This document shows, one piece after another, positions 8,887-33,881 of a DNA stretch of 64,000 nt. Position numbers and translations under genes: made by a program. Where the stretch lies: positions 8,742,001 to 8,806,000 of the forward strand of contig NC_088788.1 in the NCBI RefSeq assembly GCF_949628265.1, in the 5' to 3' direction. This DNA comes from Cloeon dipterum (lineage: Eukaryota; Arthropoda; Insecta; Ephemeroptera; Baetidae). The notes under the pieces were generated by a model, which was not told where the DNA came from, did not search any database, and worked only from the letters and a program-made list of their open reading frames with translations. Positions within the stretch are counted from its first letter, which is position 1. Every line of letters begins with the position of its first letter.

Positions 8887-11584
8887 ATGGACGGGTGTCA
8901 AGTTGCCATGTCGAGACTGGTCGTCCAAATGCTCGAGCGATTCCCCCTGATGGTTCCGAACCGCGAGCTGGACCAGTACCGCGGTTTCTTCTCGGCAGGA
9001 GTAAGTCATCCTGTACAAACTGGCACACATTCTGCTCTGCTCTCTCGGCCGGACAGACAGACACTGCATTAACGCGATATTTAGTTGCCTAAGCTTTTGC
9101 ACGTAACGCCGCGAGAATCCTTCTAGGCAAATTATATTATGGGCGTTGTTACATGCAAGACGCACTTCGGAGCTTCTGTTTATTTTGCATTTTTTATTTT
9201 CTTGTCACTCGCAGGAGGTGGACTTGTTCCTGCACGTCTATGTACCTCACCTGCCGACCGTGAAGGACATGGTCATCAAGGAGATGTCCGACGAGTTGGC
9301 ACAGATCACCAAAGACTGTCAAATTGAAATGCAGCAGGTGTGTGATTGTGATTTGCCAATTATTTTTTGTGACAGTGCGCATAGTTTTCAGATTCGCTAA
9401 CAGATAGCACCACTGTTCATTTTCAATTTTAGACATATACTGCCAGTTAAGATTAAATCCTTTTTAAGTGCGTTCTCAGCGTAAAAATATTAATACTAAT
9501 TATTGTTTGATTCGTCAATCACGGTAGAAACGACAGCAATCTGAAATCGTAAATCCCGAGATTTTCAAGTGATTGGTGGCACCATCTGTTAACGGCTATC
9601 AGTGAATTAAAAATTAATTCAAATCTGGGTTGACAGTGGCTCTCTTCAAATTCACGGGCGTTCTTCGACTTTCTTGTATGGCTGCAGAATTTGGCAGTGA
9701 GTATTTCCATTCTTTGATTTTAAATTTTAATTTATCAGTTTTCTGTTATGTCCAGATGTCAAGAAAGGTCGACGAGCTATTGGCAGGTGTGAAACCAATC
9801 GAGGTGCCGCTGGACTTCTGGAGGAGCGTTGTCAGCGTGCTCTCGTCGATTGGGGACGCGAACATCGTCAGCGTGGATCAGGCGGACCTGGGCAGCTTCG
9901 TGCTCAGTGTCGAGAGCGATGCAGGCACGCATTTATTGCGCGTGCAGGCACACCCTGATGGCTCCTTCAACTGCCAGTGCCCCAATTTACCTGACAAAAG
10001 CGCTCAGCTTGTCTTGCAGGTGCCAGATTCAGTTCACTATCGTGGTAGAGGCTCTTGACAGAATTTTGTTTGCAGTCACGGTCGATAGGTGCCGCGTTTA
10101 AATCGCTGCAGCAGCAGGTGCAAGATCTGCAGCCTTTCTGGAAACAACTCGCAGAGATTGATGCCAAAACTTGGGTCCTGGACCCTGCTGAACCCAACCT
10201 AGGACACACCAGGAGGCAAATTTCCATTGGTGAGTCCAGGAAGCTTTTGTTGTTATTCCTGACAAAAGAGATGCATGGAAATAATTTAAACCTTAATTTC
10301 AAGTTTAATTTCTTTTAAAATATATTAATGTGACCAGTTCCAGATTCAGTTTATTTAGAATTCAATATTTCAAGGGACGGGTTAAGTTTCTTGCGAATAT
10401 TTCATGCTGAAGATTTTTTAATATTTAATGTAATCTATAAAGGCGATTTACTTATTATTTGATATCCCCTTCATAAAAAAACGATTTTTTTTCGACTTTT
10501 TCTTGTTATACAAGTTATAATATTAACTCCAAATCTCGGGTTGAACTAATCAAAATTCAAAAAATTACCCACCACAAGTCTCATCTTGATCTTTCCTGAC
10601 CTGCTGGAGGATTTAGAGGGTGCTTGCTTACCCTCCGCCCCATACCACTCCTTACTACTTTATTCCATTCCTTTAAATACTTTCATACACTGCAATATTA
10701 TGTATTCTCTTATTCCATATTTTAAAACAAACCGTTTTAATTTGGAGATCAGGTAAAGGAGTGAGATTTTCATTGATTAAAAATATTTTCAAGCTCTAAA
10801 GAAGTTCGTTTATCATTAAAACTGTTCCAGAAGGTTTATAAACTGTCTCTATTTTAGAATCAGGATTTTCTGTGACAGTGGCGGTCGACCCGAGCGATCC
10901 GCTGGCGCTGCCCGAACTCTCCTTTCTCGGTCCAGACAGCAAAGTTGACCCTTTGGAGAGTAGAGTGCGCAACAAGCAGGTGCGCAATAATTATTTTAAA
11001 CTGAAAATTTTCCAAATAAAAGCTCTAAATTGGATTCCAGTGGCGAGTGTGCGACGAGTCTTTGCTGGCGTCGTTGCAGGAATTCCTGGGCGTCGAGTTT
11101 GCAGAGGCGGCAGGCGCAGCTGCGTCTCAGGCAGAGTCGCAGGAGCCAATGTGCAGCGTGTGCTTCGCGCCCGACGCGCTGGACCGAACGTGCGAAATGT
11201 GCCAAGGACTCTTCCACGAGCAGTGCCTGCTGCAGTGGCTGCAGTCCGTCCCCTCCAACCGCACCGCCTTCAACAGAATCGTTGGACAATGTCCCCTATG
11301 CAAACAGGTACTTATTTCTTTATTTATTTTGACAATGTGGAAAATGAGTGTACGGAGCTGCCAACAGCCCAACAGATGGTGCTAGGGTCATAATTAATTT
11401 TCGCAGCGATTTCTTGAATTAAATTCCATTACTGAACATTTTTAGCAAAATTATATTTCATTTTTGCGTTCTGGAAACAAATACTGAAACACTGCTAAAA
11501 TTTGATTTTAAAAATCAAGGTGGAGATGTGTTTTATGCTTGAATAATTTTAATTTTGTTCCGTTCCTAATTTTAGCCAATTTAG
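8887..11584 (+). CDS. FANCL: E3 ubiquitin-protein ligase FANCL
   Basis: FANCL is the catalytic subunit of the Fanconi anaemia core complex; it monoubiquitinates FANCD2/FANCI in interstrand-crosslink repair in the nucleus. Exons: 8887-9000, 9215-9337, 9756-10019, 10076-10229, 10858-10979, 11041-11307 and an inferred last 11576-11584, about 350 residues against roughly 375 in vertebrates. All junctions are in phase. The N-terminal ELF-like part is MDGCQ...NRELDQYRGFFSAG. The central DRWD/URD region holds FWKQLAEIDAKTWVLDP, almost as in vertebrates. The C-terminal PHD/RING has CSVC, CEMC, FHEQCLLQWL and GQCPLCKQ, so all zinc ligands appear present. After CKQ an acceptor TTTTAG opens onto Pro-Ile-stop, which agrees with the Pro-Ile that follows the last zinc ligands in relatives. 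Without that splice the frame reads about 25 unrelated residues. Confidence 0.92.
9575..9592 (-). promoter_or_regulatory. CTCF-like motif (weak)
   Basis: Reads AACAGATGGTGCCACC on the minus strand, similar to the AGATGGCGCC core bound by CTCF, with GGT instead of GGC. It is in an intron of FANCL. Two similar motifs lie at 11368 and 11761. Confidence 0.25.
11368..11387 (+). promoter_or_regulatory. CTCF-like motif (weak)
   Basis: Reads CCCAACAGATGGTGCTAGG, a one-base-different relative of the CTCF-type core, just after the RING exon of FANCL. Orientation is opposite to the sites at 9575 and 11761. Confidence 0.25.
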
Positions 11585-12056: not shown

Positions 12057-13525
12057 ATGGAGCCGAAACTGAAGTTGATCTACGTGGACGCCAAGGCGTT
12101 GGCCGAGCCCATCCGCTTTCTCTTTGCCTACGGAAATTTAGCCTATGAAGACTACCGAATCAGCCATGAGGACTTCAAGAGCGACAAGAGCCGTAAGACG
12201 CGTTTATACTGCCTTCTATTTCTCTTTCGTGGTCAATTTCATGCTTAAAGAAGATTAAAAAGTGAAGAAATATGTCTGAAATACAGTGTGTTGGAAATTT
12301 ACAATATTTTTTAGACAAACTTAGAGTATTTGAACGAAAGGAAAACTCAAAATTCCTCATTTTCCAGGCTTCAAAGTGTCACAAGTGGCAAACGGTCCAC
12401 TCAAATAGATTTTTCGTTGTTCTCACGTAAATTTAGACAAAACCTGTTTTATCAGCTTACCTTTATCTTTTATTTAAAACGTATGCAGGCAGTTTAAAGA
12501 ATAGCATGTTCAAATAGTTCAAACGTGTGCCAGGCCTCTTTTAAATTTAACCTGATAGCGTCTGAAAAAAACTTAAATTTGATTTTTCCCCTGAAAGGAC
12601 AAATATAGTCAAGGGGCAGTTAAATCACAATATAATTATTATTTTCTATGAAAGATCTTCTCAATATTAGCATTGTGGCTCTGGATCCCCCTCCCCAAAT
12701 GTCGGCCTAATTATATGTCTTAAAGATTTTTTTTTTCTTATTTTAAAACGTGGTATTGACAGGTTTTCCATACAACAAGATTCCAAACCTGGAGATGAAC
12801 GGCAAGGTGGTGCACCAGAGCATGGCGATCGCACGCTATTTCGCCAAGCAGGTTGGACTGGCCGGCGCCGACCTGAAGGAGGAGCTGCTGATCGACATGG
12901 CCGTCGACACGCTCGCCGACTACAGAGCGCGTCAGTCAAATTCAAATAATCAATTCCTGCTCGCGCTAATCCCGGTTTTCTTTGACCGCAGAGCTGGTCG
13001 ATTTCTTCTACGACACAAACGAGGAGTCTAAGAGGAGGAAGAAGGAGCAAGCCTTCCAGCTCTTCCTGCCCTTCTACCTGCAGCGCCTCGAGCAGCAGGT
13101 CATCAACAACGACGGCTACTTGGTCAACGGAAAGGTGAGAAACTAACCCATTATCATTGCACCGTGTTTTTTCTTAAGAAAAAATCTATTATGGAAAAAA
13201 CTGTTTCTTTTGTCACCGTTTGCGATGGATTTTAGTATTTATTTCATTTACATGTGTCAATTCTACATCCAAGAAAAATTGTAATTACCAAAAACTAAAT
13301 ATTGAACTTGCAGCAAATTTATTTTAAAATCCTACAAAATAAAATAAATAATTTCAGCTATCGTGGGCGGACGTGGTGTTAGCCGGGGTGCAAGACTATG
13401 TCAACTACATGGCCGGCTATGACCTTCTGAAGGACTACCCTGCCCTGAAGGCGCTTGAGCAGAAGGTGTTGAAGATCCCGGCCATCAAGTCCTGGGTCGA
13501 CAAGCGCCCCGACACAATCATGTGA
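12057..13525 (+). CDS. GstS1: sigma-class glutathione S-transferase
   Basis: Cytosolic GST that joins glutathione to electrophiles such as lipid-peroxidation aldehydes; sigma enzymes also include prostaglandin D synthases. Exons 12057-12192, 12763-12930, 12992-13134 and 13358-13525 give 204 residues, the usual sigma length. The thioredoxin-fold half has the catalytic Tyr (about residue 9) in KLIYVDAKALAEPIRFLFAY, then IPNLEMNGK and the glutathione-binding QSMAIARYFAKQVGLAG. The helical half ends in LKALEQKVLKIPAIKSWVDK. The usual MPFGQxPxL turn reads FPYNKIPNL here, so the common Gln is Lys, which may change glutathione contacts. Junction phases 1, 1 and 0 all agree. An ATTAAA signal lies just after the stop. 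Confidence 0.93.
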
Positions 13526-14593: not shown

Positions 14594-17500
14594 TTAATTA
14601 TTTGTGGATTCCTCTTTAGAGAAAGGCTGGCAGTAAATGAATGGAACTGTAACACTCGTCATCTTGGAATACCGAACAGATCGCATTTTGGGAGCAGTAG
14701 ATCCTTTGGGTGAGTACAAAAAGCTATGCTCCTTGTCCAGTTTGAAGTTGTCGTCTGACAACTCTGGACTGAGCACAGCGTCTGTGAGGCACCATCTCTC
14801 CTCATTGGTCAGTGGATCAGTATATGTGTTGCCAAAGAAATTGTCGTAATTTGCTCCTTTAATGGTTAAATTTCAAACGGGATTCTTTTTGAATAATTTA
14901 GTTTCATCACCATCCATCCAGTCCCGGATTTTCATGAATTCATCGAGGGTTGTAGCAGCTGGCTGGTGCATGCCAAGAGAGCAACAATAATTGTATGCGT
15001 CGACATATGTCTAAAATGAAATCATTGCGCAATCAACCTCTGAACTCTAATCAAAATCAAATCGTAATCACGTAGTTGTTTCGAGAGGATTTCACCCATT
15101 TTTTCCAATCAATACCAGTAACAGATAATCCTCCGTCATTGGCTTATTTTTCAAAAATCATAATTATTATTATGAAAAATCAATAAAATATTGCTTACTA
15201 GTTCCCATTGTATCGAAAAATTCCTTCCTATCGGGCTTATTTAATAAACATGTTAAAATGATTACAAAATTATTATTAAAATTGATAAAATACATCAATT
15301 TCACATTCGACTTTCATTCTTTTATAGCAAGTTCGGGGTATAGCCCGTGCACGTTCAATCTGAAATGAGGAAAGTATAGGAAAAAGCACTTTAAAACTTT
15401 ATTATTTGATGTACGTCATTATCGTCATAATTATTAAATTTAGGTGACATAATTTTGTTGAAATCCCGAAGAAGACTACTGGATGTTCCGCAGAGGAACA
15501 TGTCGTACGTACTCTGGCAAGCATCGCTGTTTGGAACTAAAATTGAATAAAATTGTATTTAAAAAAAAACAATCTAAACTAGAAACCAAATTCATAGTTT
15601 CTAAAACAGCCGAAATAAATTGCAGCATCGTATATTATACTTATGGCAAATTTTGAAACCGAAAAAACAGTTAATGAGCATTCGTTTAAAATGAGAAAAT
15701 GAGAGATAAAACACACATCTCACCTAGTTTGGTATTGCATAGGTCGAGTGTTTCCATTAATAATTTACCATCAATAATATTGTAAAGATATTCTCTACGC
15801 GTGTCCAGTTTTCTCATGAGGCGCATTGTATAGCCTATGTGCATATTACCATAGACTATCTAATTTTCTATCAATTATTTTCATTCTGTTGAGAATCAAA
15901 ACCAAATTTACCATTCTCAAATTGTCCGCGACACATCTCAGGAAACACTTCAAATTCAAATAGAATTTATTTTTCTAAAGAGTATATCGCTAAGATATTC
16001 AGACCTTCATTGTGTAATTGTACATATATATATTGTCGAGAGCATCAACTTCATCTTAAATTTTTCATAGAAATGTATATGAGCTAAAAATCCTAGAGTT
16101 TAATTTTACCATCGGAAAGACCAATCAGATCAATACATTCATTTTGTATAGATCGCACTGTGGTTGCAGTTTGACGCACCTTCAAAATTATACCAATAAA
16201 TTTTTAATTTAAAATTTTTGCTATTTAATATTAATAAATTCAGACCTCACAGATGTATCGCCTGTTTTCACTGCAGTCGGCCGTTTGCAGAGTTGTGATC
16301 GTCTCCTTGTCGCTCATTTGAATCGTGACGCAGCGCTCCAATTTGTCATTTGGTTTGACAGTGGCCCAACGGACTTCGCTCCTCAGAAAGGCCCTGTCCA
16401 CCGAGCACCATCGGAAGTTGCCCTTGCAGTCCAGATCGGTGCCAGAGGTCCAAAACTCATCGGAGATGTCATTATTATTTCTGGATACAATGTAGCTCTT
16501 CGTGAGTCTGGCCAAGCAATTGCGTTTGGCAGCAGATTTGACGGAGAGCAGTTTCATGCCCAAAGCGCAGCATTTCTCACGGGCATCGTCGTAGGTTGTC
16601 TAAACATGAAAATTCATCAAGAAATTAAAATTTGAGATGCTAATGACGATACAATGATTCAATTATTAAAAGAAAGAATCTGAACCATTGTTCAAATTTC
16701 AACTCACAGATTCATTAGAAAACAGGAAATATCTTCTGCATGCTGAAATATACTCGCCGGAACCATATCTCACTGGAAAGAAAGAAATCGGTACCGAAAA
16801 TGACGTCTGGGGAACTCAATTTTTTAAGTGTACTTTGTGTTAAATCTACTCCCTCGTCAGCAAATTTCTTTATTGCATCCTGATGAATAGAAAAATATTT
16901 TTTTTAATCTGCAAATTCAATTTTAATTGAACGAACATTTTTCTTGCATTGATGGTTGATGCCGCATCTGGTACCCATGCAAGTGCTGTTTACTATCTAC
17001 AAATTAAAATCACATGTACCTACCCTTAAATTAATTTATATAAGAATTATGCAAACCATTTGATCATTCGGCTTCTTTGCAATCAATTCGCAGGCAAGAT
17101 TGGCTTGCGTCCTCATCCGATAATTGGTTTCATTAGTGGTGCATAATTTGTTGGTCAATCTTGCACTTTGGAGAGGTGTATAAACATATTTTATTCCATA
17201 TATGATCGACAAGCAGCGTTCTTCGCTTTCAGTCCTCTCTAAAACATCCTTCAACAGGTCATTGTCAATGGGCTGAGGACTGTCTTTGGTGCACCACAAC
17301 CACGTGTTGCTAATCTCGTGGTTGAAGCCGCCGGTCCAGAATAACGTTTCCATCTCGAGTTCTATATTCAAAATTTGCATTGTGCAGCTAATGAAAATGT
17401 AAATGAAAATAATACTCGAAAGACCAATGGCAGTTCTGAAATCGAGAATTTTTGTTTTCTCAGTTAAAAGAAGTGGCTGCATCCCGATCGAGCAGCAAGT

Positions 17501-18336
17501 TTTCCAGTTATGTTTCCATGAGCCAAGTCGCTGAGGGTTTCTCGAGAGTTAATAAATTTTACAATCAAATTTGTATATTTTAGCGTACCATTGTCCCCAC
17601 CAAAAAGGTTTTACCATTGGTTTCCACAATCTTTCCGTATTTTTGAAGATCTAGAATTACAGAAAAATATGTGGTTTTGTTGAAGATCAGATAATTAGGT
17701 TAAAAAAACTAAGAGCGTACTCCGAACTTTTCCTTCGGCGGTGAGTAATGACATCTAGGGCATTTGAACGAAATTAAAAAGCTTCAACAGTACATATTAT
17801 GTATTTTACACAAATGAACGTAGCACAAATACTTTACCAAATCGAGACAATTATAATGAATTAAAAAACCCATATATTATGTACTGATTTTCAATTATTG
17901 AGAGTATATAAATGAAGCAAAAGTTTTATCTTGTCGTAGCTCATAAATAATCATTACGTTTGGATAGCAAGCGTCAAAGCAATCATATCCCTAGGAACGA
18001 AAGTTTTGTAATTAAATTAATTCAATAGAGTTGTAAGAAATGATATCACGGCTTCATTGTCTGGACCATCCTCTGCAAATCAGAACAGCAATTAATTGGT
18101 TCATATTTGCATTTCACTTTGTTTTTCAATTTTATTGTTAAGAAAACATAAATTTGTAAAACTCGTGTACCAATTAATTTCTTCTGATCATCTGCAAAAT
18201 TGATATCCTGAAATAGTTTTCAATTTAAAAAAATTCAGAGTGATGATTTCTAAATAATCAATGTCTTTAATTTAAGTACAAAAACTACCACAATTATGAG
18301 AATCGCGCAGAATGTGACAACACCAAGCAACTTCAT
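14594..18336 (-). CDS. lectin-OBP chimera, copy A: CTLD-CTLD-OBP-CTLD secreted protein
   Basis: Twenty-two exons join into one open frame of about 723 residues: 18336-18289, 18207-18171, 18072-18050, 17990-17958, 17754-17721, 17650-17589, 17530-17416, 17361-17057, 16996-16937, 16879-16795, 16772-16708, 16599-16246, 16179-16110, 16054-16005, 15947-15912, 15859-15724, 15536-15415, 15359-15294, 15235-15199, 15142-15072, 15010-14911 and 14856-14594. Residues 1-16 (MKLLGVVTFCAILIIV) are a signal peptide or anchor. CTLD1 spans about 60-218 (WKTCCSIGMQPLL, FWTGGF, WLWC, LACE). A Cys hinge follows (STCMGTRCGINHQC). CTLD2 spans about 268-407 (CCALGMKLLSVKSA, DEFWTSGTDLDC, RWCSVD, RYICE). The OBP module spans 408-545. 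IPRTCYKRMKVEC links to CTLD3 (about 580-718: NYCCSLGM, RWCLTDAVLSPE, PFIYC). Likely extracellular. Ligand and role are unknown. Confidence 0.82.
15415..16179 (-). other. odorant-binding (PBP/GOBP) module of copy A
   Basis: Exons 16179-16110, 16054-16005, 15947-15912, 15859-15724 and 15536-15415. The six cysteines fall at about residues 422, 448, 452, 500, 511 and 520 of the reconstructed protein: C1-x25-C2-x3-C3-x47-C4-x10-C5-x8-C6. C2-x3-C3 is CFLRC and C5-x8-C6 is CQSTYDMFLC. These two spacings are the hallmark of insect OBPs. C3-C4 is longer than the usual 35-43 by a few residues. Confidence 0.85.
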
Positions 18337-19213
18337 CTCACTAAAATTTTAGTCTGTCATCAAATAGCTGGCAAAACCTGCCTCTGCGGAGACCAACGGA
18401 AGTGAAACGGGAAATATTCGAGCGAAAAAATAGAGCGTGTCACATACCGTCTCTGTGATATCGAGTTTCAGGAAATCAGGAGCACACTGCATCAAACAAT
18501 ATTTTCCAGTGGGACTTTAGAGCTGTGTCTGCTGTCTTTCAAAATAATAATTTTTTTTGATACAAAAAAATGTTAGTCATGTTCCTTTTGTTGTTATTAA
18601 AATGTGAGTGGCACGAAATTTTGTTATTTTGGAGAAAATTGGTAAAATTTGAATTCCACCCACTGTTACCCCCCTCCCAATGTAATTACTATGGAATGTA
18701 ACGGGATTTTTGGCCCATTGTCAGATAATATTCTCTGCTATCCTTAAAATGTAAAATGTAAAGTGTAACAAACCACTCAAAAAAACTTTTAAGAAGTGTT
18801 TTTCATATTGAGATCCGGGATCAATATTTTTTTAATCTAATCTAATCAAGCAATGGCGTCTGATGATTTTTTCCAGATATTCCAGATTAAGATTTGCTAG
18901 CAATTCAATACATAGTTACAATATAATAGAGTTCAATTTCATACGCATTATCTTTTACCATCATCTGGCTTTTCTAAATTTGTGTTTCTTATACTTTTAA
19001 AATAAACTTACATCTCCTAAAATTCAGAGTGATGCTGTACCGCAGAACATAGCTTACAAGCAGGTTGCATACCAAGCTCTATCCCAATTCAAAATTTAGC
19101 GTCTATTAACTTTTGAATCAACCAAATCACGCTTTATTTGTTTTTAAACCCTTTAATAACCAATCAAACATCAAACAGGTCAGTGCCACTAAATTATTTG
19201 TGGATTCCTCTCA
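18337..19213. other. spacer between copies A and B
   Basis: Contains the 5' flank of copy A (repeat of CTCACTAAAATTTTA after the start codon, shared with B and C) and the 3' flank of copy B. A short C-run in CCCACTGTTACCCCCCTCCC recurs as C-rich runs in the other spacers at 23410 and 27805. No other gene. Confidence 0.5.
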
Positions 19214-22200
19214 TTACAAAGGCTGGCAATAAATGAATGGAACTATAACGCTGCTCATGTTGGAATATGGAACAGATTGCATTTTTGGAGCAGTAGATCC
19301 CTTTGGTGAGTAAAAAAAGCTCTGCTCCTTTTCCAGTTTGAAGTTGTCGTCTGACAACTCTGGACTGAGCACGGCGTCTGTGAAGCACCATCTCTCTTCA
19401 TTAGTCTGCGGATCAGTATAGGTCTCGCCGAAGAAATTGTCGTAATTTGCTCCTTTTTAATAAAGGTTCAATTTCAAATGGGAATCAATTTGTATAATTT
19501 GGTTTCATCACCATCCATCCAGTCCCGGATTTTCATGAATTCATCGAGGTTTGTAGCAGCTGGAAGTTGCATGCCACGATCGCAGCAATAAGTAAATGCG
19601 CCGACATAGGTCTAAAATAAAATCATTTCGCAATCAACTTAATAACTCTAATCAAAATCAAATCGTAATCACGTAGTTGCCTAGTGCGGATTTGTGCCAG
19701 TCTCGACCGTCAATCCCAGTCATTAACTCATAGGCTAATTTTTTAAATCATTTAATATTAAAAAAAAAACAATAAGATTTTCCTTACTAAACATCTTTGT
19801 ATCGGTTTTTATTTAATAAATGTGTTAGAAATGCATATAAAATTAATATCAATTGATAAAATACATTACGTCCACATCTAACGTTCATTCTATTATAGCA
19901 AGCGCGGGGTATTTCTGGCATTAGTGTAGGTTCATTCTGAAATGAGGAAAGTTTAGGTAACAGGATAACTGCAAAACTTTCTTATTTAACGCACGTCATT
20001 ATAATTGGACTTATTGTTAGGTGACATTATTTTGTTGAAGAACTGACGCTGACGGGATATTCCACAGAGGAACATTTCGTAAGTACTCTGGCAAACATCG
20101 CTGTTTGGAACTAGCGGAACAAAATTCAATTAGGAAAAAAAACAATCCCTACTAGAAACCATCAAAGTCACAGTTCTAGCTTAAAACATTCATCGTAAAT
20201 TATATTTTATTGCAAATTTCGAGACTGAAAAATAAACTGTTTCTCAGCAGTCATTTAAAATTTGAGATATAGAACACACATCTAACCTAGTTTGGTATTG
20301 CATAGGTTGATTGTTTGCGTATTTTTGATGAAATCATAATTTTCCTTGTCGTACTTTTCCATGAGGCGCAGTGTATTGCCACCTTTCATGTTTCCAAAGA
20401 TGATCTAATTTTCTGTCAATTGTTTTCATTTCAACTAGTATCGAAACCAAATTTACCATTCCCAAATTGTCCGCGACACATTTAAGGAAGCACTTCAAAT
20501 TCAAGCAGAACATACTTTTCTAAAATGCGTATTGCTAAAATATTGAGACCTTCATCGAGTACGTGTAATTTTTTGTAATGTCGAGACCGTCAACTTCGTC
20601 TAAAAATTTTCATAGAAATAAAAAAGCGCCAAATTACTAGAAATTGTTTACCTTTGGAAAGACCAATCAGATCAATACATTCATCTTGTATAGACTGCAC
20701 TGTAGTTCCTGATTGACGCACCTTTAATATTAAAAAAAATGTTAAAATTTACTAAAACCTTTTTTATATTAAGATAAATTATTCATTCATTTGACTTGTT
20801 ACTTGGTACAAGATAAATGACTGTTTCATTTTAGAGGTTCGATTTTTTTTAAATTTAAATGTGAAGATTTTGAAAATTAAAAAAATTCAGACCTCACAAA
20901 CGAATCGCTTTATTGCGCTGCAGTCGGCCGTTTGCAGAGCTGTGTTAGTTTCCATATCACTCATTTGAATCGTGACGCAACGTTCAGATTTGACAATTGG
21001 TTTAATGTTGGCCCAACGGACTTCGCTCTTCACAAAGGCCCTGTCCACGGAGCACCAACGGTAGTTGCCCTTGCAGTCCAGATCGGTGCCAGAGGTCCAA
21101 AATACGTCGGAGATGTCATTATCCCCTGTTTTTTCCATGTAGCTCTTCGTGAGAGTGGCCAAGCAATAGCGTTTCGCAGCAGATTTGACGGAGAGCAGTT
21201 TCATGCCCAAAGCGCAGCATTTCTCACGGGCATCGTCGTAGGTTGTCTAAACACGAAATTCATTGAGAATCTGAATCTATATAGATCTAATTTCAACCCA
21301 CAGATTCATATGAAAACAGGAAATATCTGCTGCATGCTGAAAGATGTATGCCGGAACCATATCTAACTGGAAAGAAAGAAAGAAAAAATCATTACCGAAA
21401 ATGATGTCTGGGGAACTCAATTTTTAAGTGTACTATTTAATATATCTACTCCTTTGTCGGCTAATTTCTTCACTGCATCCTGATGAATGGGAATATTTTT
21501 TTAATCTGCAAAATTTAATTTGAATTGATCGAACATTTTTCTTGCACTGGTGGTTGATGCCGCAACTGGTACTCCTGCAAGTGCTGTTTACTATCTACAA
21601 AAAATCACTTATTGCTAACAATAATCTTAAATTAATTTTAATAAACTATACAAACCATTTTATCATTCGGCTTCTTTGCAATCAATTCGCAGGCAAGATT
21701 GGGAGGCGTCGGATCCGTGGTTTCATCAGTGTTGCAAAAAATGTTGGCTATTATTGTACTTTTAGGATTGCCCATATCAATATTTATCGACACGCAGTTG
21801 CGCTCGATTTCAGCACTGTTTGATATATTCTTCAACAGTTCATTGCCGATGGGCAGAGGAGTGTCTTTGGTGCACCATGACCACATGTTGCTAATCTCGT
21901 GTCTGAAGCCGCCAGTCCAGAATCGCGTTTCCTTCTCGAGTTCTTATATTTAAAATTTACATTGCGCAGCTGGTCGTGTACAAGAAAAAAATAATACTCG
22001 CAAGAACAACGGCAGCTATGAAATCGTTAATTTTTGTTTTCTCGGTTAAAAGAAGTGGCTGCATTCCAATCGAGCAGCAAGTTTTCCAGTTATCTTGCCA
22101 CGAACCAAGTTGCTGGGGGTTTTCTCGAGAGTTAATAAATTTTACAATCAAATTTGTATATTTTAACGTACCATTGTCCCCACCAAAAATTTTTTACCAT

Positions 22201-23049
22201 TGGTTTCCACAATCTTTCCGTAATTTTCAGGACCTAGAATTACAGAAAAATACGTGGTTTAGTTGAAGATCAGATAATTTAGGTTAAAAAAACTAAAAGC
22301 GTACTCCGAACTTTTCCTTCGGCGGTGAGTAATGACGTCTAAGGCAATTGAACGAAATTAAAAAGCTTAAAACAGTATGTAATTACACAAATGGACATGA
22401 GAGAAAAAAACATTATAATGCACTAATCTCTTCAACTATTGAAGGTATTTAAAGGAAGCAAAAGTTTGAGGTTTGAGGTGTATTATGTAATCATATATTA
22501 CGTTTGGATAGCAAGCGTCAAAGCAATCAGATCCCTGGAAACGAAAGTTTTTAATAAAATAAATCAATAGAATTGTAAAAAATGATATCACAGCTTCATT
22601 GTCTGGTGCATCATCCTCTGCAAATCACAAAATTATATAAGTTTTTTATTGTTATTTCAATTGTATTGGCAAATAAACATCAATTTGCAAAACTCTCTTA
22701 CCAAAAGATGATGCCAATATAAATGTTGAAGCTGTGGTTCCAGTTGTTTTTTTCGTCGTTTTAAATAACATAGTGCTGCTTTTTCTCCTTCTGGTGGTTG
22801 GCTTGCTGGTCGAGGTCTTTTTAAGCGCCTTTCCAACGCTCTTCTTGTTTCCAGCTGAATTGACGTTAGACTTACTCTTTTTATCTGCTGCTTTCTTCTG
22901 GGCATCAGCGATTGTGATAGCCTAAAATAGATGTCAATTTAAAAATCCAGAGTGATGATTATAAACAATCAAGCTCTCTTGAATTGAAGTATACACACTA
23001 CCACAATTATGAGAATGGTGCACAATATGACAACACCGAGCGACTTCAT
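19214..23049 (-). CDS. lectin-OBP chimera, copy B
   Basis: Same order as copy A. It starts at MKSLGVVILCTILIIV (23049). Exon 2 (22921-22702) is longer than in A and codes a Lys/Ser/Thr-rich linker (DAQKKAADKKSKS..., TTRRRKSS). CTLD1 (KTCCSIGMQPLL, MWSWCTKDTPLP, LACE), CTLD2 (around 20887-21250; FWTSGTDLDC, RWCSVDRAF, RFVCE), OBP and CTLD3 (CCDRGM, RWCFTDAVLSPE, PFIYCQPL) all stay open across conserved junctions. Two oddities: the exon ending near 21400 has five A (minus strand) at 21421-21425 where copy A has six, which brings a stop; and one exon seems to be only 7 nt (19788-19794). Either it is a functional gene with a sequencing or splicing explanation, or it makes a shortened lectin. Confidence 0.7.
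19995..20721 (-). other. odorant-binding (PBP/GOBP) module of copy B
   Basis: Five exons give C1-x25-C2-x3-C3-x41-C4-x10-C5-x8-C6, with CFLKC for C2-C3 and CQSTYEMFLC for C5-C6. All junctions keep frame, so this module is intact even though an upstream exon shows a frame break. Confidence 0.85.
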
Positions 23050-23590
23050 CTCACTAAAATTTTATTTTAGCGTTAAATGGCTAGCAAAACCTGCCTGTGC
23101 GGAGACCAACGGAAGTGAAAATGAACATTTTCAGGATGCGCAGAACGAAAAATTGAGCGTGTGGCATATACTCTCTCCGTGGAAACCAGGAGCACTGCAT
23201 CACATCAGATAGTGGAAATTTAGAGCTGTCAGCCATGTTTCAAAATGAAAATCGATTTTTGATACAAAAATGCAAATTTTTAGTCATGTTCCTTGCTGTT
23301 CATAAATGTGAGTGGAAAACATTCGTCCACTTTGGAGAAAATTGGTAAAATTTGAATCCTACCTGTATCTCTAGAACGAATAGTATGGAGATAGATTAGG
23401 ATTCAACAATCCTGTCCCCCCCCCCTAATAGGGTTTGATAAATCTTAAAAATTTAAAAGACTCAAATTTCAGATCAACCAAAACATGTTTTATTTAATCT
23501 CAAGCCTTGTTAAAACCCAATAAACTCAAAACAAACATATCAATAACGGCAATTGATCATATTATGTGGGGATTACTCTTGGCGCCGCAG
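23050..23590. other. spacer between copies B and C
   Basis: Holds the 5' flank of copy B, a poly-C run (near 23410) and the 3' flank of copy C. No separate gene seen. Confidence 0.5.
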
Positions 23591-26500
23591 TTAACGGGGA
23601 GAGCAATAAAAGTACGAGACAGTGACTCTACCCATCTTGTAATGAGGCAGAGAACGCACTTTGGGAGAGCCTTTGGGTAGATAAAAAAAGCTAGGCTCCT
23701 GATCCAGTTTAAAATTGTTTTCCGAAATCTCTGGTTTGACTGTGGTGTCCGTGTCGCACCATTTCTCTTCATTATACTGCGTATCAGTATAAGTCTCGGC
23801 GAGGAAATTATCATAATTTTCTCCTTTAAAGATCCAATGTCAAACAAATTTGTCTTTGTAAATATTCTTAAACCACCATCCATCCAGTCTCTGAGTTTGT
23901 TGAATTCATCGAGGGATGTAGCAAATGGCTTTTGCATGCCAAGAGAGCAGCAATATTTTAATGCGTCGACATTTGTCTAAAATAAATTCATTTCGCAATC
24001 AACCTGTGAACTCGAATCAAAACCAAATCGTAATCACGTAGTTGCCTCGTGCGGATTTGAACCAATTTTGACCATCAATCCCAATAATAGATGAGCCTCC
24101 GTCACTTGCTAAGTTGAAATATCAATATTTATAAAAAAAAATAGTTAAGAAAAGTATCTCACTTATTCTGTTTATATCGTACGAGGCTTTAAGAGTAGTC
24201 TTTTTCATATAAATTCGTATTAGAAATACTTGCAAAAATAATAATTTCAACTTATATCAATACATTTAATGTGCACATGACGTTCTGTTGATAATAGCAT
24301 GTTCGAGGTATTTTCGCTGCTGGCTCTACCTGAAATTTTGAAATTTGAGAATGGAGATATGCATATTTTCTTTTTAACTTTATTAACTCCTAAATTGTCG
24401 AACAATATCTTGTTGAAACCCTGAGGCAGCTGCTCTTTTACGCAGACGAACATTTCGTACACGCTCTGGCAAGCATCGCCATTTGGATCTGATTTGCATT
24501 GAGTCCTCCATTTATAATATATGCATCGAAATTTGAATTCTATATATGTACCCATTTTTGTGTTGCACTGATCAATAGCGTTATCTTTTGTTTTCAAGGA
24601 TGTTTCCACGTCAAATTTTTCAAATAGGCGCATGGTATATCCACATTGCAGATATCCATTATCAATCTTATTTTATACAAGCAGTTACATAAATTGCAAA
24701 TATATTTTGCTTAAGAAAAAATTAACCATTTCTAATCCGTCGCCGACGCATTTCAAATAACACTAAAAATTAAGAAACATTTTAAAGTTTATAGACATAG
24801 TCCAAAAGTGAGAGATGGTAACCTTCATCGCGTATGTGTAATTTTCCGTATCCTGAAGAGCATCAACTTGATCTAATTGAGTTAATGGTTGAAATATGAT
24901 CAAATTGCTAATAATTATCGTTTCAATATAGCACCTTTTTGGAGACCGATCAGAGTAGTACACCTATTCAGGATTGATTTCACAGTTGTTCCAGATTGAC
25001 GCGCCTGAATTTTTAGATATAAAAATGGAATGATAGAAAATATAAAGAATTATATTTGCATCACTATTTCAACACATTAAATACAAGGGAAAATCAAACG
25101 GGTTTCAATTGCGTTTTTTAATTATTCTATTAAGCCTTGTTCCGAATGTTAAGAAAACATAAGAATCTGCTAAACAAAAGTAATCTGACCTCGCAAACGT
25201 ATCGCTTCTTTGCTCCACAGTCGGTCGTTTGCAGAGTGGTGCTGCCAAACATGGTGCTCATTTTGATTGTGACACAGCGCCCTTCCTTGCCATTAGGTTC
25301 ACCGGCAGCCCAGAGGACTTCGCTCTTCAGGAAGGCCCTGTCCACGGAGCACCAACGGAAGTTGCCCTTGCAGTCCAGATCGGTGCCAGAGGTCCAAAAC
25401 TCATCGGCGATGTCTCTGTATTTTCTCGCGAGTTTCGACAAACAGATACGTTTGGTAGCAGATTTGACGGAGAGCAGTTGCATTCCCAAAGCGCAGCATT
25501 TCTCACGGGCATCGTCGAAGGTTGTCTAAACATGAAATTCATAATAGAACACCTTAAAATTGAGATGCTAATGACAATACAATGATTCAATTATTAAATA
25601 AATATAGAAAGAATCTGAACCATTGTTCAAATTTCAACTCACAGATTCATTAGAAAACAGGAAATATCTGTTGCATGCTGAAAAATGTTCGCCGAATCCA
25701 TATCTCACTATAGATAGAAAGAAAGAAAGAAATTGGTAACAAAAATGACATATGGTGAACTCAATTTTTAAGTGTACTATTTGATAAATCTACTCCTTTG
25801 TCAGCAAATTTCTTTATTGCATCCTGATGAATAGAAAAATAATTTTTTGAATCTGATAAATTTAATTTGAATTGATCGAACCTTTTTCTTGCATTGACGG
25901 TTGATGCCGCATCTGGCACCCATGCAAGTGCTGTTTACTATCTACAAAAAAAATTATTGCTAGCAATAATCTTAAATTGATTTTAATAAACTATGCAAAC
26001 CATTTTATCATTCGGCTTCTTTGCAATCAATTCGCAGGCAAGATGTGGAGGTGACGGATCCGTGGTTTCATCAGTATTGCACAAAATGTTAGGCATTGAA
26101 TATTTGGAAGTGCTAATATTAATAGAAATCGACACGCAGTTGTTATCGGTTTTATCAGAATTGTCTGTTATATCCAGCAACAGGTCATCGTCGATGGGCA
26201 GAGGAGTGTCTTTGGTACACCACGACCACATTCGACTAATCTCGTGTCTGAAGCCGCCAGTCCAGAATCGCGTATCCTTCTCGATCTCTATATTTAAATT
26301 TTGTAATGCGATATTCTGTTCGCGTATATAAAACGAATACTCGCCAGACTAGCGGCAGTTATGAAATCGTTAATTTTTGTTTCCTCGGTAAAAATAAGTG
26401 GCTGCATTCCAATCGAGCAGCAAGTTTTCCAGTTATCTTGCCACGAGCCAAGTTGCTGGCGGTTTCTCGTGAATTAATCAATTTCACAATAAAATGTGTT

Positions 26501-27440
26501 TATTTCAGCGTACCATTGTCCCCACCAAAAAGGTTTGACCTTTGATTTCCACAATCTTTCCGTACTGTTCAGAATCTAGAATTACAGATAAATATGTGGT
26601 TTTGTTGAATTTGAGATAATTAGGTTAAAAAACTGAAAGCGTACTCCGAACTTTTCCTTCGGCGGTGACAAATGACGTCTAGGGTGTTTGATCGAAATTA
26701 AAAAGTTTAAACAACAAGTATTTTACGCAAATGAACATGACAGAAAGGCTTTACCAATTCGAGATAATAATTAATTAAAATAAAAACAATATAATGCTCT
26801 GATCTTCAACTATTGAGAATTATTTAAAAGAAGCAAAAGTTTGATGTGTGCACGTGTCTCAGAAATAATAATTACGTTTGGATAGCAAGCGTCAAAGCAA
26901 TCAGATCCCTGGGAACGAAAGTTTTTCATTAAATTAATTCAATAGAGTTGTAAGAAATGATTTCACAGCTTCATTGTCTGGAGAATCCTCTGCAAATCAT
27001 AATAACAATTAAAATAAATTATTTATTTATAATTGTTTCACTTTTATATTTTATTGTTGAGAAAACATGAATTTGTAAAAATCGCACCATTGAAAGGTGT
27101 TGCCAATTTGAATGCTGAAGCTGTAGTTACAGTTGTTTTTTTTCGTCGTTTTCAATAACATTGTGCTACTTTTTCTCCTTCTGGTGGTTGACTTGCTGGT
27201 GGTGGTCTTTTTAAGCGCCTTTCCACTGCCCATCTTGTTTCCAGCAGACTTGACATTAGACTTATTCTTTTTGTCTGCTGCTTTCTTCTGGGCATCAGCA
27301 AGTGTGATAGCCTGAAATAGAATTCGATTTTAAAAAATCCAGAGTAATGATTACTAAAAATAATTAATCTATTCAATATAAGTTTAATTTACCACAATTA
27401 TGAGAACTGCGCAGAATGTGACAACACCGAGCAACTTCAT
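23591..27440 (-). CDS. lectin-OBP chimera, copy C
   Basis: Starts at MKLLGVVTFCAVLIIV (27440). Exon order and phases match copies A and B: linker, CTLD1 (KTCCSIGMQPLI, RMWSWC, LACE), hinge (STCMGARCGINRQC), CTLD2 (25489-25190; CCALGMQLLSVKSA, FWTSGTDLDC, AAGEPNGKEGRC, RYVCE), OBP, IPRTCYYQQNVMC and CTLD3 (YCCSLGM, KWCDTDTTVKPE, SYFYC). CTLD2 keeps an EPN triplet at the place of the mannose-type sugar/calcium motif; A and B do not. Two homopolymer differences break the frame: eight T at 27136-27143 (seven in B) in the linker exon, and five T at 25765-25769 (six in A). All other exons remain open, so the copy is recent or under constraint. Confidence 0.68.
24388..25004 (-). other. odorant-binding (PBP/GOBP) module of copy C
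   Basis: C1-x25-C2-x3-C3-x40-C4-x10-C5-x8-C6, with CYLKC and CQSVYEMFVC. One extra cysteine lies between C3 and C4 (GYLQCGYTM). The short intron between C4 and C5 is open by chance, but splice signals GTACAT..CAAATCAG restore the same junction used in A and B. Confidence 0.87.
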
Positions 27441-28347
27441 CTCACTAAAATTTTATTCTATCATCAAAAAGCTGGAAAAACCATCCGCTGCGCAGACTAA
27501 CGGAAGTGAAAATGGAAATATACAGGATATCGAGAGAAAAACAAAGCGTGTAGCATACTCTCTCCTTGAAATCGAGTTTCAGGAAACTAGGAGCTCGGCA
27601 TCCAACCATATTTTTCAGTTGAAATTTTGCGCTGTCAGCCATGTTTCAAAATAAATAATTGATTTTGTTACTAAAAAATTTTTAATCATGTTTTTTTGCT
27701 GTTCTTCAAATTAGAGTGGTAAATAATACGGATATTTTTAGAAAATTGTTAAAATTTGAATTTATATGTCGAAAGGATAGATTGATTAGGATCCAATAAT
27801 TCTGTTCCCCCCCCCCAATATAATTCTTATTGAGGGCTACAGGATTTTTGGCAAATTGTCGGATTTATACTTTCCTTAAACAGTTAAAATTTGAAATTTA
27901 TTTCAAAGTAATTAAATCTGGGTTAATTTGGCTTAAAATTTTACCCAAAACTTTTTAAATTATTTTAGTGTTCAAAAATTGTGTTGGTATCAAGCGGTAC
28001 CAAGTGCCAAAGCCAAGATTCTTTCAAAGATGGCAATATTAAAAAAAATCATGATGTAAACATGAATAAACGCACTCCTAGCATTTGGGAATTAAAATTA
28101 TCCGTGCCGCAGAACAATATTTCAAAGAAGGTTGTACAATCATCTCTTTTCCACAGTAAAGGTTTAATAAAAATTAAAATTTTGTAAGACTCAAATATCA
28201 GATCAACCAAAACATGTTTTATTCAATCTCAAGCCTTGTTAAAATCCCAAAAACTCCAAACAAATCAGCAAAGGCAATAATTGATCATTGTTACATATTC
28301 ATAGCCTGGAAAATCATATTATGTGGGGATTTCGCCTGGCGCCGCAT
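27441..28347. other. spacer between copy C and relic D
   Basis: 5' flank of copy C, a run of ten C near 27808, and AT-rich sequence. No gene supported. Confidence 0.45.
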
Positions 28348-29508
28348 TTAAAAGGGAGTCTTGCAATAAAAGTACGAGACAGTGACTCTGTCCATCTTGG
28401 AATGAGGCAGAGAACGCACTTTGGGAGAGCCTTTGGGTAGATAAAAAAGCTAGGCTCCTGGTCCAGTTTAAAATTGTTTTCCGACATCTCTGATGGATTG
28501 ACTGTGGTGTCCGTGTCGCACCATTTCTCTTCATTAGTCTGCGAATCAGTGTGTCGGCGAGGAAATTATCATAATTTTCTCCTTTAAAGTTACATTGTCA
28601 AAAAATAGTTATTTTTAAATTTTCTTAAACCACCATCCACCTGTCTCTAAGTTTGTTGAATTCATCGAAGGATGTAGCAAATGGCTTTTGCATGCCAAGA
28701 GAGCAGCAATATGTATACATGTAGGCATATGTCTGAAATAAACTCATTGCACAACCGCAGATTGAGCTTAAATAACAATAATTATTTACGTAATTGCCTA
28801 GTGCGGATTTGAACCATATTTGACCATCAACCCCAGTAACAGATGATCCCCCATCGAGGGCTAAGTTGAAATATCATTATTTATAAAAATAGTTAAGAAA
28901 AATATCTCACTTGTTCCGTTTTTATCGAACAAGGCCCCAATAATGGTCTTTTTAATACAAATTCGTATTAGAAATACTTGCAAAAATAATAATTTCATCT
29001 TATATCAATACATTAAATGTGCATTGGACGTTCTGGTTATAATAGCATCTTCGAGGTATTTTCGCTGCTGGCTCAGCCTGAAATATTGAAATTTTTGGGG
29101 GAAAAATATAGACATTTTATTTCTAACTATATCATTTTCTGAATTGTCGAACAATATCTTTTGCTCTATAACACAGATGAAAATTTCGTACACGCTCTTG
29201 CGAGCATCGCCATTTGGATCTGATTTGCATTGAGTTCTCCATTTATAAAATATGCCTCTCGATATTTGAATTCTTTTACTCATTTTTGTGTTACACTCAT
29301 CAAAAGCCTTTTCTTTTGTTTGCAAGGATTTTTCCACGTCATAATTTTCATATTGGTGCATGGTATTTCCATATTGCACAGCTCCATTAATAATCTTATT
29401 TAATACAAGCAGTTACATAAATTGTAAATATATTTGGCTTGAGAAACAATTAACCATCCGACGCATTTCAAATAACACTAAAAAGTGATGTACAAAAAGT
29501 GAGATACA
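28348..29508 (-). pseudogene. lectin-OBP chimera, truncated relic D
   Basis: Only the 3' half of the unit remains: from the OBP exon with C2/C3 (around 29477, CYLKC-V then a 15-nt deletion) through the C4-C6 exons and CTLD3 to the stop at 28348. The OBP region has lost residues (SDPNGDARKSVYEIFIC shows C5 replaced by Arg). The last exon lacks 4 nt relative to copy C after a Phe-Leu-Ala triplet and has one T fewer in a run near 28445, so the frame is broken. It is closest to copy C. The 5' side stops at about 29508, where a repeated element begins. Confidence 0.8.
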
Positions 29509-29509
29509 A

Positions 29510-29878
29510 TTTTCACTGAACGAAAATTCCCGCGATCTCTGGTCAAGACCTCCCGCTGCGCGTCCGCGATGTGTGTTTCCTATGCTACCACGGTGGCTTA
29601 GCTTTTGTTCACGGCTTTGTTCGTGATTTTGCCCCCAATACACCGCGGATTCGTGTTGTGTGGTTGGTTTCGTTTTCTTTGTGTTGTATTCTTTTGGCTG
29701 TTCTCCTTTTTGAAGTTATTTCTGTGAATTCGTTTCAAACTATTTATACGTAGCTTCTTCCAAATCTTTCTCGGTGATTCCCAGGCGATTTTGTCATTGA
29801 ATTGATCTTTTCTGAAGAATGTTTTTCTTCTTTTTCTTCGTCTTGTGACAGGTATTTCTGCTGCTTTTCTACGCCATT
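29510..29878. repeat. dispersed 0.35-kb repeat, copy 1
   Basis: Direct-orientation relative of 33487-33850 (shared TTCACTGAACGAAAATTCCC and CGATCTCTGGTCAAGACC). It adjoins the truncated end of relic D. Function unknown; possibly part of a larger mobile element. Confidence 0.65.
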
Positions 29879-30161
29879 GAGGCGAAATCAGCGTTTCGAT
29901 TTTTGGTGAGGAAAATAACGCTGAAAAACAAAAATTCCTTAGATTACTTCAGATGTAGGAGCAACCTTTTCCCCCACTATCACCTTATGAATAAAGCGAC
30001 CCCTCTGTGCGTTAGCGAGCGAGGAGGAGCTCATTGTAGGGTAGGCCGTCGCGAACGGCGGTCGTCGTTTCTGAGAATAAATACTCTACTACAGCATCCT
30101 GTATCTCGTGACCAAGTGCTGTGAAGCGAAATCAGCGTTTCGATTTTTGGTGAGGAAAATG
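29879..30161 (+). repeat. short direct repeat pair
   Basis: The phrase GCGAAATCAGCGTTTCGATT followed by TTTGGTGAGGAAAAT occurs at about 29881 and again at about 30125. Between them is a GC-rich patch with AATAAATACTCTACTACAGC, which could be a promoter or first exon of the downstream repeated unit. Confidence 0.4.
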
Positions 30162-32335: not shown

Positions 32336-33486
32336 TTCGAATATTTGTCAACAATGATATTGATATTGGTCCTAAAAGAGGTTTCAAGTTGTTATTTAAC
32401 TTTTGTAGAGACAACATCTTTTTTTTAATTATTTTCAATAAAACTTGTTAAAAATCTATAAATCTATAATTCAATAAATAAAATTATTCACACCCTAGCG
32501 GGGTTGAGTGTCACGTGACCGCTGGAACTATGCCTGTGCTTCACTGCTCTCGATGGATATGAGCATGCATAGAGTACTGTCGCCGGCAAACAAGCTGAAG
32601 CGTTCTTCCCAAGCAATCAATAGCGTATTTTCTCGACAAAGTTTCAGCAACTAACTGTCAAAATCAAATCTTATATATTTTGGAAATAAAAAGCAGACAT
32701 TCGTTATTGAATTTTGAATTTATTTCTGCTAGTCAAGCGGAATGGTTAAAATTGTGTTATATAGGTTTAAAATTTTTTTATTGTCTCTATCACACCGCGG
32801 TGTGTTTCCTAGTCTTGAAAACATTCAGCTCCGCAAAATAATCATTGCCAAAATCTGGATTTATTGAAGAATCACATTATTTAATATTCAGACGATTTTA
32901 TTTCGAAAATGCTGAATTTGAGAAAATTTTGCTGAGTGGGGAAAAACTGGAAATTTAATCAGCTATCTGAATTTATGCAGTATTTAACGCAACTATGAAC
33001 AGGTGAATTTTAATGAAGCCAAACACAGACCCCATTTTGAAAATCTGCGATTTTTGAAAAAATAAAAAATTACTTTCAAGACTCAAAAGCACTATTTTTT
33101 TTTATTTTCTCACTATTAAATTTACATAAATTTTCTCATCCCGGAAGCGAATCACGAATCACAGCGAACGGAGAGGGAAGAGAGCCAATCGCTGACTGAC
33201 GCATAAAGCGGCCGCCAAATGCACCCTCTCCCCGAGTTATCGAGGAGGCTGCATTTGGCCCGTTTCACAGAGGGTTTTCCGACAAAAGACCATACTCCGC
33301 CTCAGATCCTCCATTTCACCGCGCAAAGCGTGAGGCACCCTGTAAAGCGCGTTGTACGTTTTTGAATCCACACGCTAGCTGGTATCACAATATTTTATCA
33401 GCATTTTAAAAAAAATCACGCAATAAACACAGCTTATGGTTAACAGTCCGTCATTGAGTGATTGAGGCTCATCGCGAATTACAAAG
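32336..33486. other. intergenic
   Basis: Bases 32450-32830 recur at 39150-39540 as the tail of the same segmental duplication. Bases 33140-33370 are GC-richer and include a strong hairpin (33214-33259). No gene supported. Confidence 0.4.
33214..33259. repeat. perfect-armed hairpin
   Basis: GCCAAATGCA pairs with TGCATTTGGC across a 26-nt loop whose CCTC and GAGG parts can also pair. The whole folds into a near-complete 46-nt stem-loop. Confidence 0.6.
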
Positions 33487-33850
33487 TTCACTGAACGAAA
33501 ATTCCCGCGATCTCTGGTCAAGACCTCCCGCTGCGCGTCCGCGATGTGCCTTTCCTCTTTTACCCCGGTGGCTAAGCTTTTGCTCACGGCTTTGTTCATG
33601 ATTTTGCCCCCAATACACCGCGGATTCGTGTTGTGTATGCGTTGTTGGTTTCGTTTTTCTTTGTGTTGTATTGTTTTGCTGTTTTCCTTTTGGACGGTAT
33701 TTTGTGAATTCGTGTCAAACTCTTTAAACAGTAGCTTCTTCGGAATCTTTCTCGGTAATTCCCAAGCGACTTTGTCATTGAATTGATCTTTTCTGAAGAA
33801 TGTTTTACTTCTTTTTCTTCGTCTTTTGACAGCTTTTGCAACTATGAGAT
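33487..33850. repeat. dispersed 0.35-kb repeat, copy 2
   Basis: Same sequence family as 29510-29878. On the minus strand it carries an open frame (33375-33881) rich in Lys/Arg (KRSKTFFRKDQFNDKVAW), but copy 1 has frameshifts in it, so it reads as a decayed gene or transposon fragment that I do not recognise. Confidence 0.6.
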
Positions 33851-33881
33851 GTTCCTGCTGCTTTTCTATGCAACAAATCAT

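Follow-up and report, generated by a model that had tools for sequence, protein, structure and literature searches.

Odorant-binding proteins (OBPs) are normally small, free-standing and secreted. They are commonly regarded as carriers that act on their own, and many are without a known role in smell. To our knowledge, D7 proteins carry OBP-like domains only and no lectin modules. In the mayfly Cloeon dipterum the OBP family is expanded to 191 genes, some with gill-specific expression, and the main text reporting this, in its accessible portion, contains the word "lectin" 0 times (PMC7250882). As far as the accessible parts of two further papers extend, OBP and lectin families are assigned to separate proteins (PMC3091792) or placed on separate rows of a domain table (PMC8418000). 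The same parts of these three papers, and those of PMC5381652, PMC6275457 and PMC3395120, describe no lectin-OBP fusion. None turned up among the titles and abstract starts listed by searches of open-licence PubMed Central papers for this combination; within that scope, the result agrees with an initial annotation of this DNA, which knew of no described fusion of the kind.

Here we analyse a 64,000-nt stretch of the C. dipterum genome (the window), in which OBP exons lie between exons of lectin type in three tandem genes. The sequence is best explained by a family of chimeric lectin-OBP genes.

Three tandem genes and a remnant

The three genes are present at 14594-27440, where the initial annotation had placed them, on the minus strand, as are all features given below, and each is described by a 22-exon model. 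Copy A (14594..18336) yields a predicted product of 710 aa in the order CTL-CTL-OBP-CTL, rather than the 723 residues first proposed; copy B (19214..23049) yields 739 aa, and copy C (23591..27440) has a +1 frame change in exon 2. Exon 1 of copy A (18289..18336) is a putative signal-peptide exon, with a hydrophobic N-terminus by direct reading, and exits in phase 0. All 22 exons of copies A and B form an open, phase-compatible chain linking the OBP exons to lectin exons on both sides, as had been claimed. Exon phases are the same in A and B, and copy C matches them from exon 3 onward, after the +1 in exon 2. The GT-AG intron ends were imposed by the gene-modelling script and thus carry no evidential weight. 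An alternative end of exon 7, ~9 nt upstream, was dropped; copy B has no GT at the right phase there.

The exons of a lectin module follow the phase pattern 0-1, 1-0, 0-1, 1-0, except that module 2 has the final pair fused into one exon. Every module is preceded by a short 0-0 exon that carries a cysteine. The OBP block consists of five exons (13-17) between lectin modules 2 and 3 and is in phase 0 at both ends; such a block could be inserted by exon shuffling, and also skipped, with the reading frame intact. Where exon lengths differ between copies, the difference is divisible by 3 in 9/9 exons (A and B), 5/6 (A and C) and 8/9 (B and C); for introns of differing length the fractions are 6/18, 6/17 and 6/20, respectively. 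One exon, the 19th of copy B, is only 7 nt long and doubtful.

Both exon-length exceptions to multiples of 3 involve copy C exon 2. A homopolymer in this exon, at 27136-27143, has eight bases versus seven in B, giving the +1 frame shift. There is also a degraded fourth copy, D, a remnant of exons 15-22 (28310..29485, ends approximate) found by tblastn (28351-29403) and HMM matches, with the exon 15 remnant identified by eye. In copy D the fifth OBP cysteine (C5) is replaced and the lectin-3 pieces are spread over more than one frame. Neither copy D nor the copy C homopolymer appears in the initial annotation.

The OBP block and the lectin modules

The OBP block matches the Pfam family PBP_GOBP (PF01395; curated cut-off 22 bits) in copy A (15415..16179; E 1.5e-9, 38.4 bits), copy B (19995..20721; E 1.5e-9, 38.4 bits) and copy C (24379..25004; E 6.2e-10, 39.6 bits). 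The absence of this match in copy A had been set beforehand as one of two refuting results, and the match lies above the cut-off in all three copies. The six-cysteine spacing that had been claimed, with the C2-x3-C3 and C5-x8-C6 hallmarks, is likewise present in each, the gaps being 25-3-47-10-8 in A, 25-3-41-10-8 in B and 25-3-40-10-8 in C. In a PDB search the best match of the copy C block was moth pheromone-binding protein 1 (4inw, E 5.9e-5). Copy C has a seventh cysteine within the 40-residue gap of the domain. An antisense match of the OBP profile within the window (E 0.0063) was taken as chance and not counted as support.

The profile search of the spliced product suggested at the outset found both families in the same predicted chain: PBP_GOBP (2.9e-8) and Lectin_C (7.8e-8) in the full copy B product, and PBP_GOBP (1.1e-8) and Lectin_C (1.8e-6) in the first 532 residues of copy A. 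None of the three copies has an ATG in the open sequence that leads in frame into exon 13, and on this ground the block does not qualify as a free-standing secreted OBP with its own signal peptide, although a stand-alone isoform made through exon 1 is conceivable.

Three lectin domains had been proposed for each gene. The second (exons 11-12) passes the Lectin_C cut-off (PF00059; 22.6 bits) in all three copies: copy A (16246..16772) with 33.6 bits on exon 12, copy B (20893..21366) with 33.5 bits for the full product, where residues 332-450 are the best stretch, and copy C (25190..25707), in which EPN is kept, with 37.7 bits (3.7e-9). In the PDB the copy C domain matched LY75 best (E 9.4e-10 for the whole chain; top single domain i-Evalue 1.9e-4). 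An AlphaFold model of copy C exon 12 alone was uninformative (mean pLDDT 39.8). The first module (exons 5-8) stays under the cut-off in copy B (21656..22338; 18.6 bits) and copy C (26001..26678; 18.7 bits) and has no Pfam match in copy A (17057..17754).

The third module (exons 18-22) is degenerate. It is drawn in copy A (14594..15359) from hhalign and exon phases as in lectin 1, and in copies B (19214..19936) and C (23591..24329) from the exon model and hhalign. Sent alone to Pfam, it gave no Lectin_C match in either copy tried (A and C), and only NGF (E 0.11) in A; a PDB search with copy C gave five matches, all of E 0.19 or worse and no lectin among them. In hhalign, lectin 1 aligned to lectin 2 with Prob 93.6, and lectin 3 to lectin 1 (P 4.7e-5, Prob 68) and to lectin 2 (P 1.4e-4, Prob 52). 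These profile comparisons argue that lectins 1 and 3 are lectin modules, modestly so for lectin 3, for which the repeated exon phases speak as well. In a window-wide HMM scan the lectin-3 profile reached the lectin-2 exons at E 0.0097-0.046 only, which was not counted as support. Viral contigs scanned with the OBP and lectin-2 alignments, and prokaryote genomes scanned with the lectin-2 alignment, contained no relatives, as expected since the genes are from an insect.

Between copies, dN is below dS in all three pairs for the OBP domain (p 0.025, 4e-4, 2.3e-9), lectin 2 (p 0.011, 2.5e-4, 3.8e-4) and lectin 3 (p 0.0051, 2.2e-5, 7.6e-5). These tests are one-sided, uncorrected and made from rounded counts, and the weakest OBP value, 0.025, would fail correction for 12 tests. 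No purifying selection was seen on lectin 1 in the three pairs (p 0.68, 0.36, 0.54), where dN is about equal to dS.

One transcript or several

Each copy is probably a single gene whose product is one secreted mosaic protein, comprising a signal peptide, two lectin-like modules, an OBP domain and a third lectin-like module. From the genomic sequence, we infer that lectin and OBP exons share one mRNA; a single transcript would join all 22 exons and so place the OBP between lectin modules 2 and 3. Intron 17, leading from OBP to lectin 3, is 55, 58 and 49 nt long in A, B and C, and intron 12, leading from lectin 2 to OBP, is 66, 171 and 185 nt, against a median intron length of 60 nt (n=63 introns). 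The splice sites of both introns score no differently from the spread seen at the remaining introns of the gene; this test is weak because donor scores barely separate the chosen sites (median 4.3) from 494 other GTs (2.4). Points against one protein include the copy C frameshift, the 7-nt exon of copy B, and lectin 1 without purifying selection.

That lectin, OBP and lectin are separate neighbouring genes, merged by gene modelling alone, is highly improbable. In its favour are the manual assembly of the exon chain and the length of intron 12 in B and C, which at 171 and 185 nt exceeds most introns of the gene. However, no copy has an ATG in the open sequence leading in frame into exon 18, just as for exon 13; the gap between OBP and lectin 3 is 49-58 nt throughout, and that between lectin 2 and OBP is 66 nt in A; and the module order is identical across the three copies.

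The main rival, itself unlikely, gives each gene alternative 3' parts. Exons 1-12 would make a lectin isoform that terminates within intron 12, a splice from exon 1 to exon 13 would make an OBP isoform, and lectin and OBP would rarely or never occur together in one protein. The direct splice is possible, as exon 1 exits and exon 13 enters in phase 0, and a protein assembled hypothetically from exons 1 and 13-17 of copy A still scores as an OBP (PBP_GOBP 1.6e-9). The exon-12 donor reads GTCTGA in A and B, where a retained intron would add a single Val before a stop codon and so close the lectin naturally; ATTAAA lies within intron 12 in all three copies. Copy C, however, has no such Val-stop, and its retained intron stays open until a later stop. 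Splicing across short introns is usually to the neighbouring exon. A direct join of exons 1 and 13 would skip 11 exons. Furthermore, lectin 3 starts only 49-58 nt past the OBP and the open stretch in front of it lacks an ATG, so that an OBP isoform would be an OBP-lectin protein anyway unless it ended in intron 17; there AATAAA, the sole signal sought, occurs only in copy A. The excess of dS over dN fits one joint mRNA and separate isoforms alike and cannot separate them.

The single mosaic protein remains the preferred reading, and its OBP exons may have entered the lectin array by exon shuffling as a phase-0 block.

Function and relation to known systems

The residues of the lectin 2 sugar-binding motifs were read by eye, at what we take to be their exact positions. 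The EPN position holds KPN in A, KPI in B and EPN in C, but copy C lacks the acidic residue two positions ahead of the following cysteine. The ND pair is AD, AD and TD in A, B and C, with Asn replaced in all three. An alignment to Clec4a4 fixes the EPN position and ends before ND. Lectin 2 lacks the full set for Ca2+-dependent sugar binding (EPN/QPD, acidic residue, ND pair), and inspection of lectins 1 and 3 by eye revealed no canonical site. The suggestion that a ligand is presented on a glycan surface is therefore not supported, the canonical Ca2+ sugar-binding residues being incomplete. The accessible part of PMC6275457 tabulates EPN, WND and QPD as C-type lectin motifs, and states that carbohydrate binding is lacking in most members of the C-type lectin domain family.

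The most likely function, less certain than the mosaic protein itself, is that of a secreted lectin-like scaffold whose OBP pocket would take up a small hydrophobic ligand, in extracellular capture or recognition. The lectin modules would work chiefly by protein contacts and not by canonical Ca2+-dependent sugar binding. A possible though disfavoured alternative keeps the fused architecture and makes the OBP a ligand-free structural spacer in a fast-changing, partly decaying family; it differs from the preferred explanation in function only, and its probability overlaps with that explanation rather than competing with it. Copy D is a remnant and copy C frameshifted, dN and dS are about equal in lectin 1, and the Ca2+ residues of lectin 2 are incomplete, all consistent with a spacer; the six OBP cysteines in canonical spacing in every copy, with dN below dS in all pairs, argue for a working domain instead. 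It is doubtful, though conceivable, that the genes represent a new secreted insect recognition class, in which a phase-0 OBP pocket shuffled into a lectin array would let one molecule recognise a hydrophobic ligand at the same time as a surface or partner, and skipping of the block would produce lectin-only forms.

An OBP under selection inside a lectin-type protein would, if true, be a clear-cut example of the OBP fold serving as a module, and would point to roles in immunity or secretion. Genome surveys that count OBPs may then include domains of larger proteins in their totals.

Compared with insect OBPs (PF01395), the window blocks are alike in six-cysteine canonical spacing and Pfam score; they differ in being five internal exons without a start of their own. 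Tandem C-type lectin receptors (PF00059), such as LY75 and the mannose receptors, resemble the window genes in having several lectin modules per chain. In contrast to these receptors, the window genes have an extra OBP domain, a strongly degenerate module 3 and incomplete Ca2+/sugar residues. Long-form D7 salivary proteins are alike in holding an OBP fold inside a larger secreted protein, a likeness that is weak for the copy C block in the PDB (6v4c, E 0.022; 7tx8, E 0.41, not significant), and to this arrangement the window genes add lectin modules.

Tandem genes and their odorant-binding module

Exon models were built by reading the minus strand of 12-32 kb and aligning the three tandem copies, with GT-AG ends imposed by script. 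The alignment gave 22 exons in each of three minus-strand genes, copy A (18336-14594, 710 aa), copy B (23049-19214, 739 aa) and copy C (27440-23591), the three tandem genes described in the initial annotation. The frame is open across the whole chain in A and B, and from exon 3 onward in C, where the phases are as in A. Exon 2 of C has a homopolymer of eight (27136-27143, plus strand) versus seven in B (22747-22753), which, if not an assembly error, is a frameshift. Among exons that differ in length, the difference is a multiple of 3 in 9/9 (AB), 5/6 (AC) and 8/9 (BC), with exon 2 of C accounting for both exceptions; the corresponding counts for introns are 6/18, 6/17 and 6/20. The introns are short (n=63 over three copies, median 60 nt, range 49-203). 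Exon 2 of A (18171-18207, minus) is 183 nt shorter than that of B and is devoid of the lysine/serine/threonine-rich linker.

The odorant-binding protein (OBP) model PBP_GOBP, whose cut-off is 22 bits, is matched by exons 13-17 at 38.4 bits in A and in B and at 39.6 bits in C, and the proposed OBP identity therefore passes this check in every copy. Both PBP_GOBP and Lectin_C are matched by the full B product and by the first 532 residues of A. The best PDB match of the OBP is moth pheromone-binding protein 1 (5.9e-5); other OBPs were also matched, and some hits with E values of 0.03 or higher are chance matches. A three-copy profile retrieved 5 PDB matches up to E 0.01, all of them OBPs, pheromone-binding proteins or Anopheles AGAP005208-PA. 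The six-cysteine spacing reported earlier is borne out: the gaps are 25-3-47-10-8 in A, 25-3-41-10-8 in B and 25-3-40-10-8 in C, with an extra cysteine inside the 40-residue gap of C. Intron 16 of C (24489-24551, minus; 63 nt) is open in frame, and its retention would add 21 OBP residues including two cysteines.

Next to C lies a degraded fourth copy, D (28310-29485, minus), with remnants of exons 15-22; OBP C5 is replaced and the lectin-3 pieces are in different frames. Just past its cut end, similar open frames at 29598-29948 and 33375-33923 (minus), both with a KTFFRKDQFNDK stretch and neither with a Pfam match at E 0.01, are apparently a dispersed repeat. A second duplicated element consists of similar 104-aa open frames at 44717-45031 and 52881-53195 (minus; 87/104 residues identical); the first, the one searched, had no Pfam match. 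Conserved neighboring genes identified by Pfam are Swi5 (681-1022, minus), a FANCL C-terminal domain (11029-11385, plus) and a glutathione S-transferase N-terminal domain (12747-13031, plus).

The lectin modules

Lectin 2 (exons 11-12) is above the Lectin_C cut-off in all three copies, and lectin receptors are among its PDB matches. Lectin 1 falls under that cut-off in B and C and has no Pfam match in A; its alignment is related to that of lectin 2 (hhalign, Prob 93.6). Searched by itself in two copies, A and C, lectin 3 gave no Lectin_C match in either, and there was no lectin among its PDB matches. It aligns to lectin 1 at hhalign P 4.7e-5 (probability 68) and to lectin 2 at P 1.4e-4 (probability 52), both probabilities being modest; the control of OBP versus lectin 2 gave 0.1. 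Lectin 1 (exons 5-8) has the phase series 0-1, 1-0, 0-1, 1-0. Exons 19-22 of lectin 3 repeat it, as do exons 10-12 of lectin 2, where the final two are merged into one, and short cysteine-bearing 0-0 exons (4, 9 and 18) precede modules 1, 2 and 3. Given these hhalign relations, recurring phases and preceding exons, the initial count of three lectin domains is probably right, with the third much degraded.

A single product or separate ones

The OBP block begins and ends in phase 0, and in all three copies the in-frame open stretch directly upstream of exons 13 and 18 contains no ATG. In A, B and C, respectively, 55, 58 and 49 nt separate the OBP from lectin 3, and 66, 171 and 185 nt separate lectin 2 from the OBP; separate genes would hardly fit into the former gap in any copy or into the latter in A. 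With short introns, splicing to the neighboring exon is the default. Splice-site scores of introns 12 and 17 are inside the gene's own range, donor scoring separating poorly from background. Against a single protein, retained intron 12 in A and B reads Val and then stop, a natural lectin end; in C the read-through continues for ~19 residues. ATTAAA is found in this intron in all three copies. Exon 1 could also splice in frame to exon 13, the hypothetical product still being recognized as an OBP. For OBP-lectin transcripts to be wholly absent, several special splices would be needed, because lectin 3 must join something upstream. From these gene models, we consider it fairly probable that A, B and C each encode one mosaic lectin-OBP protein, possibly with isoforms alongside.

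Selection, function and relation to known families

Rounded Nei-Gojobori counts were used in one-sided tests for dN<dS, with p values uncorrected for 12 tests and sites treated as independent. For AB, AC and BC, respectively, dN<dS was found in the OBP (p 0.025, 4e-4, 2.3e-9), lectin 2 (0.011, 2.5e-4, 3.8e-4) and lectin 3 (0.0051, 2.2e-5, 7.6e-5); lectin 1 gave no such signal (0.68, 0.36, 0.54). These tests do not separate one mRNA from isoforms. In lectin 1 (17057-17754, 21656-22338 and 26001-26678, minus) dN is about equal to dS and dS between copies is low; it evolves either free of detectable constraint or under constraint and diversification combined. For the short stretches of exons 3-4 and 9-10, the counts alone give dN/dS of 0.21 to 1.69. 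Since dS differs by domain (BC, 0.15 in lectin 1 versus 1.52 in the OBP), gene conversion in the 5' half of the genes is suggested, as it is by the low dS of lectin 1, possibly with diversifying change.

Retention of all six OBP cysteines, together with dN<dS, makes a ligand pocket plausible. By eye, lectin 2 reads KPN, KPI and EPN in A, B and C at the EPN position (the Clec4a4 alignment places that position only) and AD, AD and TD at the ND pair, and C lacks the acidic residue at the second position ahead of the next cysteine. As judged from sequence, the lectin modules are short of a full canonical Ca2+/sugar site, so the idea that the protein presents a ligand on a glycan surface is unsupported. 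The favored, tentative reading of the product is an extracellular lectin-like scaffold bearing an OBP pocket.

A lectin-OBP fusion was not found in the full-text literature searched for the combination (open-licence PubMed Central papers), as judged by titles and abstract openings; insect protein databases may contain one that has been annotated without being discussed. The mayfly genome paper gives 191 OBP genes, and the word "lectin" has 0 occurrences in its main text (PMC7250882). In the relevant excerpts, OBPs appear only in the reference lists of PMC6275457 and PMC3395120, the former stating that most C-type lectin domain family members do not bind carbohydrate. C-type lectins and OBPs are treated apart in the pertinent portions of PMC5381652 and listed as separate families in those of PMC3091792 and PMC8418000.
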